Positions 3,050-24,757 of a DNA stretch of 64,000 nucleotides are shown here, piece by piece. A model generated the notes under the pieces. It had not been told where the DNA came from. It searched no databases and saw only the letters and a program-made list of their open reading frames with translations. Position 1 is the stretch's first letter. Each line of letters opens with the position of its first letter. The translations under genes were made by a program, and so were the position numbers. Source of the DNA: Pseudomonas sp. KU26590 (GTDB lineage: Bacteria; Pseudomonadota; Gammaproteobacteria; Pseudomonadales; Pseudomonadaceae); NCBI RefSeq assembly GCF_026153515.1, contig NZ_CP110644.1, forward strand, positions 2,137,501 through 2,201,500, given 5' to 3'.

Positions 3050-3085
3050 AAAAAAAACCCGGCTTCTGGGGGGTGAATCCGGGTT
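3050..3085 (-). terminator. rho-independent terminator of the RgsA-like sRNA
   Basis: Stem of 7 bp (3079-3085 pairing with 3056-3062) around a loop of about 16 nt, followed on the minus strand by a run of eight T. On the plus strand there is no T-run after the stem, so it is oriented for minus-strand transcripts. Confidence 0.85.
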
Positions 3086-3168
3086 AAGACCATTAGGAGT
3101 AAAACAAAGACACGCTGTCCGTTGGTGTCCTTGCCAACGCTGGCACTTGGGGGAGATGCTGCGTTGAC
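3050..3168 (-). ncRNA. rgsA: RgsA-like (P16) RpoS-dependent small RNA
   Basis: About 119 nt on the minus strand between the tatD-like gene and the TetR gene. It ends in a strong intrinsic terminator (stem AACCCGG/CCGGGTT, then eight T on the minus strand) and is preceded at 3173-3182 by CAATACTTAT, close to the extended RpoS -10 (CTATACTTAA). Established knowledge: the Gac/RpoS-controlled sRNA RgsA is about 120 nt and lies beside the tatD-like gene (PA2959) in P. aeruginosa. Length, promoter type, terminator and position all fit. The name is inferred from synteny and was not checked by alignment. Confidence 0.7.
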
Positions 3169-3172
3169 GAAT

Positions 3173-3182
3173 ATAAGTATTG
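3173..3182 (-). promoter_or_regulatory. putative RpoS-type extended -10 of the RgsA-like sRNA
   Basis: Minus-strand CAATACTTAT matches 8 of 10 positions of the sigma-S element CTATACTTAA. It lies 5-7 nt before the inferred RNA start near 3168. No good -35 was seen, which is normal for RpoS promoters. Confidence 0.55.
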
Positions 3183-3462
3183 GCTATAATCCGCAGGCGT
3201 CCAGCCGCTCGCTGTACGATTTTTAAACAGTTTTGGAATACCTGACGGCTTGCTGATACCGCAATTCCACTGACGCTCCGGATTTTCGACCGTCCATCCC
3301 ATCTTGCCAAAAAACGAGACTGTCTGGGCCTCAAGCGTTTCCTTTTTGCCTGCCGGCCTCGAAATCCGTCAGAAAACGGATGCAGGTCGGATGATCCGTG
3401 CATTCTGCTGCGGGATAGGCATAATGTGCCGCTTCCGATCCCCGAATCCACAGTCTCCTCCT

Positions 3463-4149
3463 ATGCAGAAAGAACCTCGTAAAGTCCGTGAGTTTCGCCG
3501 CCGTGAGCAGGAGATTCTCGACACCGCGCTCAAGCTCTTCCTCGAACAGGGCGAAGACAGCGTCACCGTCGAGATGATCGCGGACGCCGTGGGTATCGGC
3601 AAAGGCACCATCTATAAGCACTTCAAATCCAAGGCGGAGATCTACCTGCGCCTGATGCTTGACTATGAGCGTGATTTGAACGAGCTGCTGCATTCGGCGG
3701 ATGTCGACAAGGACAAGGAAGCGCTGTCCCGCGCTTACTTCGAATTCCGCATGCGCGACCCCCAGCGCTACCGGTTGTTTGACCGGCTGGAAGAGAAGGT
3801 CGTCAAGGGCAATCAGGTGCCGGAGCTGGTCGAGGAGCTGCACAAGATCCGCGCCTCTAACTTCGAGCACTTGACGTTGCTGATCAAAGGCCGGATCTCC
3901 GAAGGCAAGCTCGAAGACGTCCCTCCGTACTTCCATTACTGCGCCGCCTGGGCGCTGGTGCACGGCGCGGTAGCGTTGTACCACTCGCCGTTCTGGAGCA
4001 ATGTGCTTGAAGATCAGGAAGGCTTCTTCCAGTTCCTGATGGACATCGGCGTGCGCATGGGCAACAAGCGCAAGCGTGATGTCGATCATACGCACGAGGC
4101 CAAACCCGAGACCCGACTCGACTCCCAGCCCGACCCCGCTGCGGAATAA
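3463..4149 (+). CDS. TetR-family transcriptional regulator
   Basis: A 228-residue repressor-type regulator. The N-terminal helix-turn-helix spans roughly residues 34-53 (TVEMIADAVGIGKGTIYKHF), followed by an all-helical ligand/dimer domain. I start at ATG 3463 because the preceding reading frame (from 3304) has no homology-like content and overlaps the promoter area. The acidic/proline-rich tail after about residue 205 is low complexity. A homologue sits at the same place in other Pseudomonas (PA2957 type). Target genes are not evident; the following lipoprotein is a possibility. Confidence 0.88.
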   Translation: MQKEPRKVREFRRREQEILDTALKLFLEQGEDSVTVEMIADAVGIGKGTIYKHFKSKAEIYLRLMLDYERDLNELLHSADVDKDKEALSRAYFEFRMRDPQRYRLFDRLEEKVVKGNQVPELVEELHKIRASNFEHLTLLIKGRISEGKLEDVPPYFHYCAAWALVHGAVALYHSPFWSNVLEDQEGFFQFLMDIGVRMGNKRKRDVDHTHEAKPETRLDSQPDPAAE

Positions 4150-4265
4150 AGCGCAGCTCCGTAAGCCGATTCAGCGAGCGAAACCTTCTCCAGGTCCGAC
4201 ATGGCGCAAAAGCTGCATTAACCGGCCATTCGCCGGTTTTCCGTCGCCGGACTTTGGAGATAAAA

Positions 4266-4871
4266 ATGCGTAGCCTGGTTTTACTGCTGGCTCTACTGGC
4301 GTTGAGTGGCTGCATGCACGTCAGCGATCTGGCACAAGGCGCTCACGATGAGCTCAGTGACGCCGGGCTGCTGGATCATAGCTCAACCCGTCGGTTGAAC
4401 AACTTCCGCGTGCAAGCCGACTCGTTCATCTATATCGCCCAGGGCGCCTTCGTTCCGCCGGGCGGTGCCTACCCGCGTTCAAACGTCGTGGCCGAAGAAG
4501 CGTTCAACGGGTTTATCGAATACTTCCCGATGGTCCGCCGCGCTCGCGCTCCTGAAGGTCTGGATGAGGCGATGAACGAGGCCCGGGCCGCCGGTGCGCA
4601 CTATCTGCTGTACACCCGTTTCGCCAAAGCCGATGACCGCATCGGCACGTTTGACGAGTGGTCGGATCAGGAAGCGGTGGACCGCCTGGGCATCGACAAC
4701 GGCGTCATCCAGCTGATGCTGATCGAAACCAACACCCGCTACCTCATCGATTCGGCACGCATTCACCTTCGTGGCGGCCTGCTGACCTTGTACGACACCA
4801 AGCCCGAGGATTTGCTAGGACCCCCGATGGAAGCTTACGCTCGCGGTTTGCTGGGCGTCGAAGCCCGCTGA
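4266..4871 (+). CDS. DUF4823 lipoprotein
   Basis: A 201-residue exported lipoprotein. The signal peptide is hydrophobic and ends in the lipobox L-S-G-C (Cys16), so the mature protein should be lipid-anchored. The start at ATG 4266 is supported by GGAG 8 bp upstream; the ATG at 4254 lies before that site and is rejected. The rest resembles the Pseudomonas DUF4823 family, of unknown function. The DUF1285 gene begins 10 bp after its stop, so the two are probably co-transcribed. Confidence 0.8.
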
Positions 4872-4881
4872 GGAGTGGCGT

Positions 4882-5445
4882 ATGAGTGGGCAGGACAAAG
4901 CCAATGATCTGTTGGCTCAGATTGCCAGGAGCGGCAAGGGCTTGCCGCCCGTGCACCTGTGGAACCCGGATTTCTGCGGTGACATCGACATGCGCATCGC
5001 TCGCGATGGCACCTGGTTCTATCTGGGTACGCCCATTGGTCGCAAGCCGATGGTTCGGCTGTTTTCCACCATCATTCGCCGGGACGGCGACGATTACTTT
5101 CTGATCACGCCGGTGGAGAAGGTCGGCATCAAGGTCGACGACGCCCCTTTTGTGGCAGTCCTGCTGGACGTTGAAGGCAGCGGGGAGTCGCAGTTGCTGC
5201 GGTTCACCACTAACGTTGAAGACGTGGTGGAGGCGGGGGCTGAACACCCGCTGCGTATCGACGTCGATCCGCAGACCCAGGAGCCAGCACCCTATATTCA
5301 TGTGCGCAACAACCTCGAAGCGCTGATCCACCGTAATGTCTTCTATCAGCTGGTGGACCTTGCTGCTGTGCGTGAAATCGATGGCCAGCGCTGGCTGGGG
5401 GTGTGGAGCGGTGGCGAGTTCTTCCCCATCGGCGTTGAGCCCTGA
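4882..5445 (+). CDS. DUF1285 family protein
   Basis: A 187-residue soluble protein matching the DUF1285 family by its opening ([18 protein letters not shown]) and the central [12 protein letters not shown] segment. Structures known for the family are small beta-rich folds and the role is undefined. It lacks a signal peptide or membrane segment. It follows the lipoprotein gene with a 10-bp gap. Confidence 0.8.
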
Positions 5446-5554
5446 TCCGTTCATTTCTGTTCGTCCGTACGTTCGCCTATCCGCTTGCGGCCAATTGCCT
5501 GACTTTCACCGGGCAGTTACAGTGCCGCCCCCCGATTTTTCCTGAGGTTTTTCC

Positions 5555-6565
5555 ATGAGTCAGTCCTTTGATATCGCCGTGATTGGCGCCACCGGTACTG
5601 TCGGCGAAACCATCGTCCAGATTCTCGAAGAGCGCGACTTCCCGGTCGGCGATTTGCACCTGCTCGCCAGCGTCGAATCGGCCGGAAGCTCGGTGCCGTA
5701 CCGTGGCAAGAACGTCCGTGTACGTGAAGTCGACGCCTTTGATTTCAGCAAGGCCAACATTGTCTTCTTCGCAGCAGGCGCTGCCGTGACACGCAGTTAT
5801 GCCGAGCGCGCCACCGCCGCCGGTTGTGTGGTTATCGACCTTTCCGCTGGGTTGTCGGTGGAGCAGGCGCCGAATGTGGTGCCCGAGGTCAATGGCGCCC
5901 GCCTGGCTGATCTGGCCAAACCGCAGCAGGTTGCCTGCCCGAGTTCCAGCGCTGCCGCCCTCGCACTGGTGCTGGCGCCGTTGCGCGCACTGCTGAATAT
6001 CGAGCGGATCACCGTGACGGCGTGCCTGGCGGTGTCGAGCATGGGCCGCGAAGGGGTCACCGAACTGGCCCGGCAAACCGCCGAGCTGCTCAACGTTCGC
6101 CCGCTGGAACCCAAGGTGTTTGACCGGCAGATGGCGTTCAATGTGCTCGCCCAGGTGGGCAAGCCTGACGCTGACGGTCATGTGCCACTGGAAAAACGTT
6201 TGGTCAGCGAGTTGCGCGAGTTGCTCTCGCTGCCTTTAATCAAGGTCGGCGTGAGTTGCATCCAGGTGCCGGTGTTCTTCGGCGACAGTCTGAGCGTGTC
6301 GGTGCAGACAAGCGAGGCGGTCGACATCAGGGCGGTCAATGCCGCGCTTGAAACTGCCGAGGGCATCGAGCTGGTTGAGGCTGGCGATTACCCGACGCCA
6401 GTGGGCGACGCCGTAGGACAGGATGCTGTCTATGTAGGACGTTTACGCGGGGGCGTCGACGACGGTTGTGAGCTGAATTTCTGGGTCACGCTGGACAATG
6501 TGCGCAAGGGCGCGGCCTTGAACGCTGTGCAGGTGGCTGAGTTGTTGATAAAAGATGTTGCGTAA
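5555..6565 (+). CDS. usg: aspartate-semialdehyde dehydrogenase-like protein (Usg type), catalytic residues replaced
   Basis: A 336-residue member of the semialdehyde dehydrogenase fold: N-terminal Rossmann motif GATGTVGE (about residues 11-18) and a C-terminal dimerisation domain. Where true enzymes have the nucleophile in A-N-P-N-C-S-T this protein has A-C-P-S-S-S-A, so the Cys aligns with Ser. The G-H-S histidine motif reads FFGDS (His to Asp), and the Arg in the preceding V-R-V-P motif is Gln. It therefore probably lacks asd activity and corresponds to the PA3116/Usg paralogue. It precedes fimV, as in P. aeruginosa. Its real function is unknown. Confidence 0.85.
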   Translation: MSQSFDIAVIGATGTVGETIVQILEERDFPVGDLHLLASVESAGSSVPYRGKNVRVREVDAFDFSKANIVFFAAGAAVTRSYAERATAAGCVVIDLSAGLSVEQAPNVVPEVNGARLADLAKPQQVACPSSSAAALALVLAPLRALLNIERITVTACLAVSSMGREGVTELARQTAELLNVRPLEPKVFDRQMAFNVLAQVGKPDADGHVPLEKRLVSELRELLSLPLIKVGVSCIQVPVFFGDSLSVSVQTSEAVDIRAVNAALETAEGIELVEAGDYPTPVGDAVGQDAVYVGRLRGGVDDGCELNFWVTLDNVRKGAALNAVQVAELLIKDVA

Positions 6566-21434: not shown

Positions 21435-22988
21435 TCACCCCAAAAACAGCTTGTACGCCGGGTTCTTGGTCTCATCCCAATACGGATAACCAATCTCCGC
21501 CAGCGCCTGCGGCACAAGATGCCGCTCGTCTTCAGGCACCACCAGCCCGGCCACCACTCGGCCATCCGCTGCGCCATGGTTGCGGTAGTGGAACATCGAA
21601 ATATTCCATTTCCCGCCCAGCTTGTTCAGAAAGTTGAACAGCGCGCCCGGCCGCTCCGGGAATTCGAAACGCAGCACCACTTCGTCGCTCACCCGCTCCG
21701 AATGCCCGCCGACCATGTGCCGCAAATGCAGCTTGGCCAGTTCGTTGTCGGTCAGGTCCAGCACCGGGAAGCCCTGCTCCGTCAGGCTCGCGATCAGGGC
21801 TTTGCGAGGGTCGGTGTCGGGGTGGGTCTGCACACCGACGAAGATGTGCGCCTCGCGGTCGGTGTGGTAGCGGTAGTTGAATTCGGTGATCTGCCGTTTA
21901 CCAATCGCTTCGCAGAACGCTTTGAAGCTGCCCGCCTGTTCCGGAATGGTCACGGCAATGATTGCTTCGCGGCCTTCGCCCAGTTCGGCGCGTTCGGCGA
22001 CGTGGCGCAGTCGGTCGAAGTTGACGTTGGCGCCGGAGTCGATGGCCACAAACGTCTGCCCGGTGACTTCGTACTGTTCGGTGTACTTCTTGATCCCGGC
22101 CACGCCCAAGGCGCCGGAGGGTTCAGTGATCGAGCGGGTGTCGTCGTAGATGTCCTTGATCGCCGCGCAGATTTCATCGGTGCTGACGGTGATCACTTCG
22201 TCGACGTAATCCTTGCAGATCTCGAAGGTGTACTGACCAATCTGCGCCACCGCGACGCCATCGGCAAACAGCCCGACCTGCTGCAGCACCACGCGCTCGC
22301 CGTAGGCCATGGCCTGTTGCAGACAGTTTGAATCGTCCGGCTCGACGCCGATCACCTTGATTTCCGGTCGCAGGTATTTCACGTACGCCGCGATGCCGGC
22401 GATCAGCCCGCCGCCGCCCACCGGCACGAAGATCGCATCCAATGGCCCCTGATGCTGACGCAGGATTTCCATCGCTACCGTGCCTTGCCCGGCAATGGTG
22501 TCGGGGTCGTCGTAAGGGTGAACGTAGACGTAGCCGTGTTCCTCAACCAGCTTCAGCGAATACGCCAGCGCTTCGGGAAACGAGTCGCCATGCAGCACGA
22601 CCTTTCCGCCCCGGGAACGCACGCCTTCGACCTTGATCTCCGGCGTGGTCTTCGGCATGACGATGGTCGCTGCCACGTTCAGCGTCTTCGCCGCCAGCGC
22701 CAGGCCCTGGGCATGATTACCCGCCGACGCCGTCACCACGCCCCGCGCCAGTTCTTCCGGGCTCAACTGCGCCAGCTTGTTGTACGCGCCGCGAATTTTG
22801 AAGGAGTACACCGGCTGCAAGTCTTCGCGCTTGAGCAGCACGTTATTACCCAAACGCGCCGACAGCTGGCGCGCGGCGTGCAGCGGGGTTTCCACGGCGA
22901 CGTCGTAGACGCGGGAGTTGAGGATCTTTTTGACATAGTGATTGAGCAGGTCGCCCTGAACGGGCGGGTGGGCTGGCAGCTGACTCAT
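21435..22988 (-). CDS. ilvA: threonine ammonia-lyase, biosynthetic (threonine deaminase)
   Basis: First committed step to isoleucine: L-threonine to 2-oxobutanoate and ammonia. The PLP lysine is Lys64 in YSFKIRGAYN; the glycine-rich phosphate loop VGGGGLIAG and SAGNHAQG are clear. Two C-terminal ACT-like regulatory domains (after about residue 335) mark the feedback-inhibited anabolic form. 517 residues. The start ATG at 22988 has GAGG 8 bp upstream and overlaps the stop of a 25-residue leader ORF (ATGA). An attenuator-like leader precedes it (separate entries). Confidence 0.96.
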   Translation of the reverse strand: MSQLPAHPPVQGDLLNHYVKKILNSRVYDVAVETPLHAARQLSARLGNNVLLKREDLQPVYSFKIRGAYNKLAQLSPEELARGVVTASAGNHAQGLALAAKTLNVAATIVMPKTTPEIKVEGVRSRGGKVVLHGDSFPEALAYSLKLVEEHGYVYVHPYDDPDTIAGQGTVAMEILRQHQGPLDAIFVPVGGGGLIAGIAAYVKYLRPEIKVIGVEPDDSNCLQQAMAYGERVVLQQVGLFADGVAVAQIGQYTFEICKDYVDEVITVSTDEICAAIKDIYDDTRSITEPSGALGVAGIKKYTEQYEVTGQTFVAIDSGANVNFDRLRHVAERAELGEGREAIIAVTIPEQAGSFKAFCEAIGKRQITEFNYRYHTDREAHIFVGVQTHPDTDPRKALIASLTEQGFPVLDLTDNELAKLHLRHMVGGHSERVSDEVVLRFEFPERPGALFNFLNKLGGKWNISMFHYRNHGAADGRVVAGLVVPEDERHLVPQALAEIGYPYWDETKNPAYKLFLG

Positions 22989-23062
22989 CGTGTGGGCCTC
23001 GTGGGAAGGCTTGCGATGATCAGGCGGGCGGCGAAAACGGCGAGGGAAGGGCGAATGATCAT
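22985..23062 (-). CDS. Ile-rich 25-residue upstream ORF coupled to ilvA
   Basis: ATG at 23062 follows a good AGGAG site (spacer 6). The 25-codon frame opens Met-Ile-Ile and contains a second Ile-Ile pair at residues 15-16 plus several Leu/Val/Ala. Its TGA overlaps the ilvA ATG by the ATGA arrangement, so ribosomes finishing it can restart on ilvA. No homologue was checked. It could be a translational-coupling leader or a second isoleucine sensor. Confidence 0.55.
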   Translation of the reverse strand: MIIRPSLAVFAARLIIASLPTRPTR

Positions 23063-23102
23063 GTCTGGCTCCTGATGTGGTTTTGGCCCGGGAGACAGAG
23101 AG

Positions 23103-23128
23103 AAAAAACCCGCCTCTAGGGCGGGTTG
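23103..23128 (-). terminator. attenuator terminator in the ilvA leader
   Basis: Minus-strand stem AACCCGCC/GGCGGGTT with a CTAGA-type loop, followed by TTTTTT. It lies after the Ile-rich leader peptide and 115 bp before ilvA. The 5' arm can instead pair with GGCGGGTT at 23145-23152, which covers the last codons and stop of the leader peptide, giving mutually exclusive antiterminator and terminator forms. Confidence 0.75.
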
Positions 23129-23142
23129 GGTGCAAACGTCGG

Positions 23143-23208
23143 CTAACCCGCCATGACTGGAATGGCGGTAATAATTATCTGGCCGAAGAAATGCTGGGGT
23201 GCGTTCAT
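23143..23208 (-). CDS. ilvA leader peptide with Ile-Ile-Ile-Thr-Ala-Ile-Pro-Val run (attenuation control)
   Basis: A 21-codon ORF from ATG 23208 to TAG 23143. Codons 11-18 read Ile-Ile-Ile-Thr-Ala-Ile-Pro-Val (first Ile codon is the rare ATA). The stop codon lies at the edge of the sequence that can pair as antiterminator. This matches the textbook layout of amino-acid attenuation: stalling at Ile codons would leave the antiterminator free and permit ilvA transcription. No Shine-Dalgarno is visible and the predicted transcript start is only a few bases upstream. Confidence 0.7.
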   Translation of the reverse strand: MNAPQHFFGQIIITAIPVMAG

Positions 23209-23217
23209 GGAGTCGAG

Positions 23218-23245
23218 ACTATTGCGAACATGGCGCAGTCGTCAA
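23218..23245 (-). promoter_or_regulatory. putative ilvA leader promoter
   Basis: Minus-strand TTGACG (-35, 23240-23245), 16-bp spacer and AATAGT (-10, 23218-23223). The predicted start falls near 23211, 3-5 nt before the leader-peptide ATG. Confidence 0.5.
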
Positions 23246-23368
23246 GTGGGCCGCTGTCATGGACGCTGCTTTGGCGGAGCAAATCGGCCGCACGGGCAAA
23301 AAGCAGGCAAGGCTCAGCAACACCGCCCGAATCATTACCGTCCATAAGGCGAGGCTGAATGGCTTGAA

Positions 23369-23457
23369 TGTAGGAGCGCGCTTGCCCGCGAATGGGGAGG
23401 TTCAGGTGGCGTTGATGTCACTGAAATGACGCTTTCGCGGGCAAGCGCGCTCCTACA
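23369..23457. repeat. REP inverted pair upstream of ilvA
   Basis: Exact 23-bp arms at 23369-23391 and 23435-23457 (core GGAGCGCGCTTGCCCGCG), a class also found at 36.6-36.8 kb. Together with the ilvA leader it fills most of the 23209-23610 gap; nothing else was recognised there. Confidence 0.88.
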
Positions 23458-23610
23458 AGGACCTCAGTGTCGTCGAGTGTTCAACAGGCCTTCATTTTTT
23501 GTTCATGAGGGCACTTTAGGGTTGGGCTCGTAGTCAGTGAATCTGCTGTTGAATGATTTAGCGGCACCACAACCCTATCGATCACAAGAACCCGCCACGA
23601 GGGCGCAAAC

Positions 23611-23697
23611 ATGGACGAGTACCAAGAAGAATTGCTGGAATACCAGGCGTACGAGATGGATCCGCTGGAACCAGCAGAAGACGCCACCGAGTTGTAG
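23611..23697 (+). CDS. 28-residue acidic small protein
   Basis: ATG 23611 follows GAGGG with an 8-bp spacer. The product (opens MDEYQEELLEYQAYEMD) is very acidic with nine Glu and three Asp in 28 residues, has no hydrophobic segment and could form one helix. It ends 20 bp before the convergent AraC gene. The clean ribosome site and strong composition bias support a real small gene, but function is unknown. Confidence 0.5.
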   Translation: MDEYQEELLEYQAYEMDPLEPAEDATEL

Positions 23698-23716
23698 GAA
23701 AACCCGCGCCTGCCAG

Positions 23717-24757
23717 TCAGAGCGACTGGCGTTGGCTGCGACGAAACGCACCGGGCGTCTGTTCGGTCCAGCGTTTGAAGGCCCGCTGAAAAGCCTCGGC
23801 CGAAGCAAATCCCAACAGATAAGCGATTTCGCCAAAGGCCAGTTCGGTGTCCCGGATGTAGGTCATGGCGAGGTCGCGCCGGGTGTCGTTGAGGATCGCA
23901 CGAAACTGCGTGCCCTCGTCCGCCAGCTTGCGGCGCAGGGTCCAGGTCGGCAATTTCAGCCGGGCCGCCACTTCTTCGAGATCCGGCTCCCGCCCCCCAT
24001 TCAACAACGGCCCCAGTAATTGGGTGATGCGCTCACGCAGGCTGCGGGTGCGCGTGAGCTGTTCCAGTTCCCGTTCACACACCTGCAGCAGATGCCGCCA
24101 GGTACTCGGCACGTGATCGGGGTTGCGCAGGCCAAGCTGATGCTGGTTGAGGCGCAGCTGATTGACGCTCGCCGCGAAACTCACGGGCTGCTCACAGAGC
24201 GCGGCGTATTCAGCGGCGTAGGCGGGGGCATCGAACTCGATCTCCAGGCGTTCAGCCTTTAGCGTCGTCCCGCACAGCGTCGACAGCTGATGCAGCCAGC
24301 CGCTGAGAATCGAATCCACCACGAAGCGGTTGTAGTCGTTGTACGGGCTGATGGAATAGAAGCGCAGCCAGGCGCCGTCGCTGTCCTCATGGAGGCTCGA
24401 CTGGCCGCGATAGTTCGAGCCGTATAGCGGTTCAAAACGAATCAGCGTGCGCGCCGCTTCACGCACGGTCGGCGCCTGGGCGGCGGTGATGCCGGCCAGG
24501 CCGGCGTGGCTCAAACGACTGGATTCGCCCATTCGCAAGCCCAGCGCAGGCACGCCGGTCAGCTCGATGGCCGCATGGCCCAGGCGCATGTAGCGCGGGA
24601 TCGACAGCCGGGCGCCGGCCTCACCCAGTCGCGCGGCATCCAGGGCGTATTGCTGCAGCAGCGGTTGCGGGTCCTTGCCTTCGTTGCGAACAGCGTCGGC
24701 CAGGCTGTGGACGAAACCCACGGACAGATCGCCCAGACGCACGCGAGGGGAGGTCAT
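23717..24757 (-). CDS. AraC-family transcriptional regulator with arabinose-binding-type N-terminal domain
   Basis: 346 residues. The N-terminal domain (about 25-210) has the feature AGLAGITAAQAPTVREAARTLIRF common in OruR/GbdR-like regulators. The C-terminal double helix-turn-helix (about 245-340) ends with the AraC signature AYLLGFASAEAFQRAFKRWTEQTPGAFR. It starts 3 bp after the stop of the nitrilase-like gene, so the two form a unit. The inducer is unknown; resemblance to OruR (ornithine) is suggestive only. Confidence 0.88.
   Translation of the reverse strand: MTSPRVRLGDLSVGFVHSLADAVRNEGKDPQPLLQQYALDAARLGEAGARLSIPRYMRLGHAAIELTGVPALGLRMGESSRLSHAGLAGITAAQAPTVREAARTLIRFEPLYGSNYRGQSSLHEDSDGAWLRFYSISPYNDYNRFVVDSILSGWLHQLSTLCGTTLKAERLEIEFDAPAYAAEYAALCEQPVSFAASVNQLRLNQHQLGLRNPDHVPSTWRHLLQVCERELEQLTRTRSLRERITQLLGPLLNGGREPDLEEVAARLKLPTWTLRRKLADEGTQFRAILNDTRRDLAMTYIRDTELAFGEIAYLLGFASAEAFQRAFKRWTEQTPGAFRRSQRQSL

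Follow-up and report, generated by a model that had tools for sequence, protein, structure and literature searches.

IlvA is the committed enzyme of isoleucine synthesis, and the locus studied here raises the question of whether the RNA made ahead of its gene controls it. The locus lies in a stretch of 64,000 nucleotides from Pseudomonas sp. KU26590 (hereafter, the window). A sequence-only reading had proposed that a complete isoleucine attenuation leader precedes ilvA, with a textbook layout and with no described version known to that reader for Pseudomonas ilvA. On the basis of the anatomy of the region and its comparison with relatives, which support this mechanism, we consider that a ribosome-mediated transcription attenuator very probably makes ilvA respond to isoleucine supply. 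The features are listed in Table 1. Two of the earlier statements need to be modified: the attenuator parts are present, but the leader ORF is apparently leaderless and a coupled second ORF stands ahead of ilvA; and the RNA is already in Rfam, though as an sRNA gene.

Table 1 Features of the ilvA leader region, with positions in the window
Feature	Position	Strand	Basis and remarks
-35 element TTGACG	23245-23240	minus	sequence; promoter scan; conserved in relatives
-10 element TAGTCT	23221-23216	minus	18-nt spacer to -35; fits relatives
Leader ORF, 21 codons plus TAG, MNAPQHFFGQIIITAIPVMAG	23208-23143	minus	ORF list; conserved in relatives
Control codons ATA ATT ATT ACC GCC ATT (Ile-Ile-Ile-Thr-Ala-Ile)	23178-23161	minus	sequence; Ile codons ATA ATT ATT at 23178-23170 and ATT at 23163-23161
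Rfam RF00624 (P9, 'Pseudomonas sRNA P9')	23178-23105	minus	cmscan; full model 1-74
Segment 1, CCGCCAT	23168-23162	minus	pairs with segment 2; covariation
Segment 2, ATGGCGGGTT	23154-23145	minus	overlaps leader ORF end; pairs with segment 1 or 3
Segment 3, AACCCGCC	23127-23120	minus	antiterminator 3' arm or terminator 5' arm
Segment 4, GGCGGGTT	23114-23107	minus	terminator 3' arm
Terminator T-run T6	23108-23103	minus	expected 3' end of attenuated RNA
Second ORF, MIIRPSLAVFAARLIIASLPTRPTR, 25 codons	23062-22985	minus	between terminator and ilvA; AGGAG Shine-Dalgarno
ilvA, biosynthetic threonine ammonia-lyase, 517 aa	22988-21435	minus	ORF; Pfam domain Thr_dehydrat_C

The leader ORF and its control codons

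The 21-codon ORF with its Ile tract was found ahead of ilvA as described earlier, and its in-frame Ile codons are conserved in relatives. Loss of these codons in related strains had been named as a refuting observation; in all 85 loci at which a P9 match precedes ilvA, an in-frame ATG opens an ORF containing Ile-Ile-Thr. The ORF ends in Ala-Gly before the stop codon in 81 of these loci, and the other four (L050, L071, L072 and L076) exit the frame near the end. Together with 80 loci from named genomes and one P. aeruginosa record, these 85 made up 166 loci; four were dropped because their upstream sequence was too short, and 149 unique loci (over 135 bases) were analyzed. When the promoter was located first and then the first ATG, with the reading frame ignored, 148 of the 149 loci had this ATG in the frame of the Ile codons. 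In-frame pN/pS over the variable stretch ahead of the Ile codons was 0.44, 0.57 and 0.53 in the 20-, 21- and 22-codon classes, respectively, and 0.63-1.29 in other frames, the coding signal being weak in the commonest length class (0.57 in frame versus 0.63 in the +1 frame). Both the position of the ATG and the in-frame values below 1 show a short ORF conserved as coding, weakly so in that largest class.

Leader Ile codons comprised 483 ATT, 52 ATC and 9 ATA, compared with 8, 21 and 0 in ilvA, an excess of ATT that arises partly by construction because the search pattern itself fixed some Ile codons as ATT. Two consecutive Ile codons lie outside all three helices described below in 28 of 30 diverse loci, and these codons for the end product sit where a stall is predicted to free segment 2. 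It should be noted that the Thr codon ACC follows the Ile codons and that a stall there, judging from the positions, would free segment 2 as well; therefore, threonine shortage could also trigger the leader. Many leaders have only two Ile codons before segment 1, and related leaders head SnoaL-like genes, AAA_33 genes and one GNAT-like gene. These features would suit an attenuator for which isoleucine is not the main signal and which responds instead to a lack of threonine, to a ribosome inhibitor or to translation stress in general. Such a signal nevertheless appears unlikely, given that the common downstream gene is ilvA and that consecutive Ile codons stand clear of the helices in nearly all of the diverse leaders; we infer that isoleucine is the amino acid sensed.

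Promoter and predicted start of the leader RNA

A promoter was present at the place proposed, but the scanned -10 hexamer (AATAGT) lies 2 bases upstream of TAGTCT, the one that fits the relatives. A -35 element made up of TTGAC and any sixth base (T, G, C or A) could be identified in 147 of the 149 unique homologous loci, and a hexamer starting with TA ended 6-8 nt ahead of the leader ATG in 147 as well. When promoter and first ATG were located, L020 proved to have an additional, out-of-frame ATG, and L080 had no clear promoter. In the window, seven bases separate TAGTCT from the ATG at 23208. The spacing between -10 and ATG, with a score of at least 8, occurred in 18 of 2980 trials with base-shuffled upstream sequence versus 147 of 149 real loci reaching 8. 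Moreover, only 8 of the 149 leader ATGs had a Shine-Dalgarno-like 4-mer, compared with 123 of 144 first ATGs past the terminator.

The -10 hexamer occupies -12 to -7 relative to the start site; therefore, the transcript is predicted to start at the leader ATG or 1-2 bases before it, which in the window would be 23209 or 23208. The leader RNA is thus apparently leaderless, with its ORF at the very 5' end. Within 22500-23800, one promoter-like site was found versus 0.3 in shuffles and one terminator-like site versus 1.5; since such single-region scans are near expectation, the case rests on comparison.

Alternative hairpins and terminator

The antiterminator arm over the last leader codons and the terminator with its T-run were located where the sequence-only reading had put them. 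The repeat behind its two mutually exclusive hairpins was confirmed: GGCGGGTT occurs at 23152-23145, within segment 2, and again as segment 4, on either side of segment 3. Computed energies were -11.3, -13.0 and -13.6 kcal/mol for helices 1:2, 2:3 and 3:4, respectively.

Covarying stems across relatives had been suggested as a check. In a structure alignment (A1) of 30 diverse leaders, of which 15 belong to ilvA loci and 15 to others, 96.7% of the cells of helices 1:2 and 3:4 were paired and 5 pairs (21 cells) were changed on both sides; none of 500 shuffles was as high and slid controls were 32-55% paired, the tested structure being the consensus of A1 itself, which favours that structure. 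The protector hairpin 1:2 had 93.9% of cells paired and both-side changes in three of its six pairs. For helix 2:3, 88.3% of cells were paired versus 34-61% in slid versions. Its six-pair core was paired in 179 of 180 cells (13 via U-G), each pair being kept in 29 or 30 of the 30 loci, and its two outer pairs were poorly kept. Covariation of helix 2:3 among the 30 aligned leaders was not above shuffles, because the antiterminator core is too invariant. Hence, covarying stems were found for 1:2 and 3:4, whereas 2:3 is conserved without covariation. Only one position of the core is variable: there, 13 of the 30 leaders carry U in segment 2; opposite this U, segment 1 has A in eight, a G wobble in three and no standard pair in two, and segment 3 stays G and pairs by wobble. 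This pattern is what two competing helices would require.

When the RNA was folded up to the end of segment 3 with a ribosome masked at the first, second or third Ile codon, 2:3 was predicted to form; when the ribosome was placed on the fourth Ile codon or on the stop codon, 2:3 was absent and 3:4 formed. Once segment 4 was present, the equilibrium fold was the terminator for every ribosome position; as the terminator wins at equilibrium even with a stalled ribosome, antitermination would have to be kinetic.

Proposed mechanism

In the mechanism that we propose, the first transcribed base would be the A of the leader ATG or a neighbour of it, and ribosomes would thus load directly on the 5' end. 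When isoleucine is plentiful, the ribosome would reach the stop codon inside segment 2, the 3:4 terminator would form and a terminated RNA of ∼105 nt, the P9 'sRNA', would be released. When charged Ile-tRNA is short, the ribosome would stall on ATA-ATT-ATT and cover segment 1, and segment 2 would be free to pair with segment 3 while segment 4 is still to be transcribed; with the 2:3 antiterminator formed, the polymerase would continue into ilvA, whose translation would then probably proceed from the coupled ORF at 23062-22985. If the leader is not translated, 1:2 and 3:4 would form and transcription would stop. Several findings count against an attenuator: helix 2:3 without covariation, the weak coding signal in the commonest class, the terminator as equilibrium fold, a leader-free second ilvA, P9-like leaders before genes for other than isoleucine enzymes, and the Thr codon after the Ile codons.

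Identity and distribution of P9

The P9 match in the window scored 92.6 bits against a gathering cut-off of 43 (E 5.2e-20 in a 4-kb scan) and spans the whole model; the P. aeruginosa record matches too, at 89.8 bits. In cmscan of the whole window, P9 was found once, along with RgsA and three tRNAs, RgsA (Rfam RF00628) lying at 3059-3255 on the minus strand with 155.9 bits. Rfam types RF00624 as 'Gene' and labels the RNA an sRNA; unlike the present reading, the label given there mentions neither a leader peptide nor an antiterminator nor control of ilvA. In P. aeruginosa, a short P9 RNA was reportedly detected (by Livny in 2006).

P9 matched in 224 of 298 genus genomes (217 above the cut-off) versus none of 14 control genomes, and our own model R1 matched in 90 of 119 genus genomes. 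At the class level, P9 at E 0.001 was found in 20 of 369 genomes, the window's own included, and 4 of these, again including the window's own, passed the cut-off; R1 was found in 17 of 369, the window's own included. We then considered 100 genus P9 loci, comprising the 30 best (the window's among them), 40 more, and a further 30 taken from 23 genomes in which P9 matched more weakly or several times. An ilvA gene was downstream on the same strand in 85 of them (L001-L085), IlvA residue 15 lying 125-288 nt beyond the Ile tract. At the other 15 (L086-L100), which are second or weak matches, ilvA was absent from the surrounding sequence examined; therefore, the 224 genomes include some whose only P9 match is one without ilvA. 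Similarly, a pattern scan of named genomes had ilvA downstream in 75 among the 80 matches listed, the remaining five having too little sequence after the leader to judge.

The Rfam typing would suit an independent sRNA that acts in trans and has a promoter and terminator of its own, with ilvA transcribed separately and the ORF incidental, and terminated attenuator RNAs can act in trans, according to the portion of PMC7298713 available on S. meliloti rnTrpL. We regard this explanation as improbable, as P9 lies on the ilvA strand, before ilvA or before a SnoaL-type gene followed by ilvA, and has a conserved in-frame Ile ORF and a segment 2 that can form two exclusive helices. Moreover, the two roles are not exclusive, since the attenuated RNA would itself be the sRNA.

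With regard to previous descriptions, no P9 or ilvA attenuator in Pseudomonas was found in the open-licence literature as judged by titles and the beginnings of abstracts, and 'ilvA' does not occur in the main texts of PMC2965389, PMC8297930, PMC3247240 and PMC3460626.

The second ORF and ilvA

As proposed earlier, ilvA follows the terminator on the minus strand. In the window, the stop codon of the second ORF overlaps the ilvA start as ATGA. Among 150 unique loci, 99 have ilvA as the first frame, starting 100-127 nt from the beginning of the Ile tract. The other 51 include 4 with no ATG there and 47 with another frame before ilvA: 30 are ORFs of 25-39 codons with GGAG ahead of the ATG and ATGA coupling to ilvA (the window's included; 28 of the 30 begin Met-Ile), 15 are small uncoupled frames without GGAG, and two (L319 and L225) are longer ATGA-coupled cistrons of 135 and 144 codons, respectively, that match a SnoaL query. 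In L319, a P. aeruginosa plasmid record, the leader MTFATLLTRRSIITAIPAMAG is followed by a gene of the SgcJ/EcaC family and then by ilvA. These three elements (3998-6067) form one apparent operon near chromosome-like genes, such as cyoE. The second ORF of the window is probably a remnant of the SnoaL-type cistron that is still present in the P. aeruginosa record.

That the second ORF is instead the main regulator through translational coupling, with the upstream element only a constitutive partial terminator, is very improbable: coupling and GGAG do coincide exactly in 30 of the 45 loci with a short frame, mostly beginning Met-Ile, but 99 of the 150 loci start ilvA directly at the equivalent ATG, the upstream leader is present in all 150 (loci selected by the leader), and a stall in the second ORF would lower rather than raise ilvA translation.

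ilvA copies, short forms and lineages

The genome of the window has a second full-length IlvA (C1:49358-50872), whose protein is 99% identical; the DNA identity of the two copies is 94.4% over 1514 bp, starting at about codon 14. The near-identity of the two genes suggests a recent duplication or gene conversion. No P9-type leader was found in the 400 nt upstream of the second copy, and control of the attenuated copy would therefore not control all threonine deaminase. The upstream regions of the two copies are unrelated. A long inverted repeat, GTAGGAGCGCGCTTGCCCGCGAA and its complement (REP-like by eye), lies upstream of the leader at 23370-23456, and a similar one also precedes the other ilvA copy. 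At E 1e-200, which is too strict for the short forms to pass, 15 of 74 genus genomes had two IlvA matches.

In 26 genomes (20 without P9 and 6 with weak P9), there was one IlvA match above 900 bits each, and the leader pattern was absent within 700 nt upstream of IlvA in all 26. In an IlvA tree of 63 rows (34 with the leader and 29 without), the leader label needs four changes. The window's IlvA groups with the leader-free sister copy as a pair, within a branch that has 100/100 support and contains all leader-free rows; thus, the leader has been combined with two IlvA lineages.

For ilvA length, 126 loci were used with duplicates kept, and 72 of them gave a complete ORF that could be aligned from the start; 52 of these had 330-359 aa, 1 had 248 and 19 had 500-529. 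Another 46 run past the sequence end (23 of these beyond residue 360) and 8 have no usable start. A 335-aa example (L012, 1617-2621; its relatives are similar) is without the Thr_dehydrat_C domain of the window's protein. In many relatives, the attenuated ilvA is such a short form, with no room for the isoleucine feedback domain, and in these species attenuation may provide the isoleucine control that is absent from the enzyme. The P. aeruginosa IlvA paralogues PA0331 and PA1326 are named serine/threonine dehydratases in the part of PMC9239102 available; 'PA1326' in the corresponding part of PMC7316268 was set aside as an isolate number.

Leaders ahead of other genes

Leader ORFs containing Ile codons were also identified before genes other than ilvA at 18 loci (L086-L090, L094-L100, L131-L134, L149 and L157), none of which showed an ilvA in its vicinity. 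The best promoter-like pair ended 4-9 nt ahead of the ATG in 15 of the 18, and 6 of the 13 given to cmscan passed the P9 cut-off. Pfam searches of three downstream proteins gave SnoaL_3 (L087), AAA_33 (L096) and a P-loop match below cut-offs (L134); the other downstream genes were named by likeness to these three, apart from L157, which was assigned to GNAT by reading. No such leader was present in the 350 nt read at the AAA_33 homologue of the window's genome. The leader reading was dropped for L091-L093, which resemble chance terminators. The class search gave 21 loci outside the window's own genome (L131-L151), five of which were judged to be leaders by reading (L131-L134 and L149); the other 16 appear to be unrelated terminators, three of them (L139, L141 and L142) having been checked for a leader ORF.

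Comparison with known systems and implications

The E. coli ilv, thr, leu and trp operons have ribosome-mediated attenuators of the kind known in Enterobacteria. In architecture, the Pseudomonas leader shares with them a leader peptide with control codons, the helices 1:2, 2:3 and 3:4, an intrinsic terminator and a biosynthetic gene downstream. It differs in that its ORF lies at the predicted transcript start, usually without a Shine-Dalgarno sequence, that most leaders have 3-5 Ile codons, and that ilvA follows alone or after a SnoaL-type gene. The trp genes trpE and trpGDC of P. putida are controlled by attenuation, in the same genus as the P9 leader and for another pathway. The ilv and leu leader peptides of Enterobacteria are treated in the available part of PMC6123439. 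According to the part of PMC7298713 available, the S. meliloti trpL attenuator RNA begins with the leader ATG and its terminated RNA, rnTrpL, is known as an sRNA. The sRNA label is shared with the P9 leader, for which an ORF at the RNA start is predicted as well; by contrast, rnTrpL/peTrpL is alphaproteobacterial, senses tryptophan and has reported trans functions (PMC7298713, same part).

The description that fits P9 best is that of an isoleucine attenuator, apparently leaderless, that has been catalogued as an sRNA. More tentatively, and as a possibility that we would not yet favour, P9 could be the released form of gammaproteobacterial attenuators with leaderless leader peptides that act as a mobile regulatory cassette. 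Such a cassette would precede a second ilvA, often without the isoleucine feedback domain, with attenuation replacing enzyme feedback; in the window's clade, it would have become joined again to the other ilvA lineage. SnoaL-like, AAA_33 and further genes would also be under its control, together making up a regulon for isoleucine starvation.

Our data propose a concrete function for an Rfam family listed as an sRNA; for amino acid attenuation in Pseudomonas, they would add a leader RNA that apparently begins with its own ORF. In many relatives, the attenuator stands before a short threonine deaminase that lacks the regulatory domain, so that control of the transcript and feedback on the enzyme can be compared in nature. 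Finally, the extra leader copies raise the question of how SnoaL-like and AAA_33 genes may be linked to isoleucine or translation stress.
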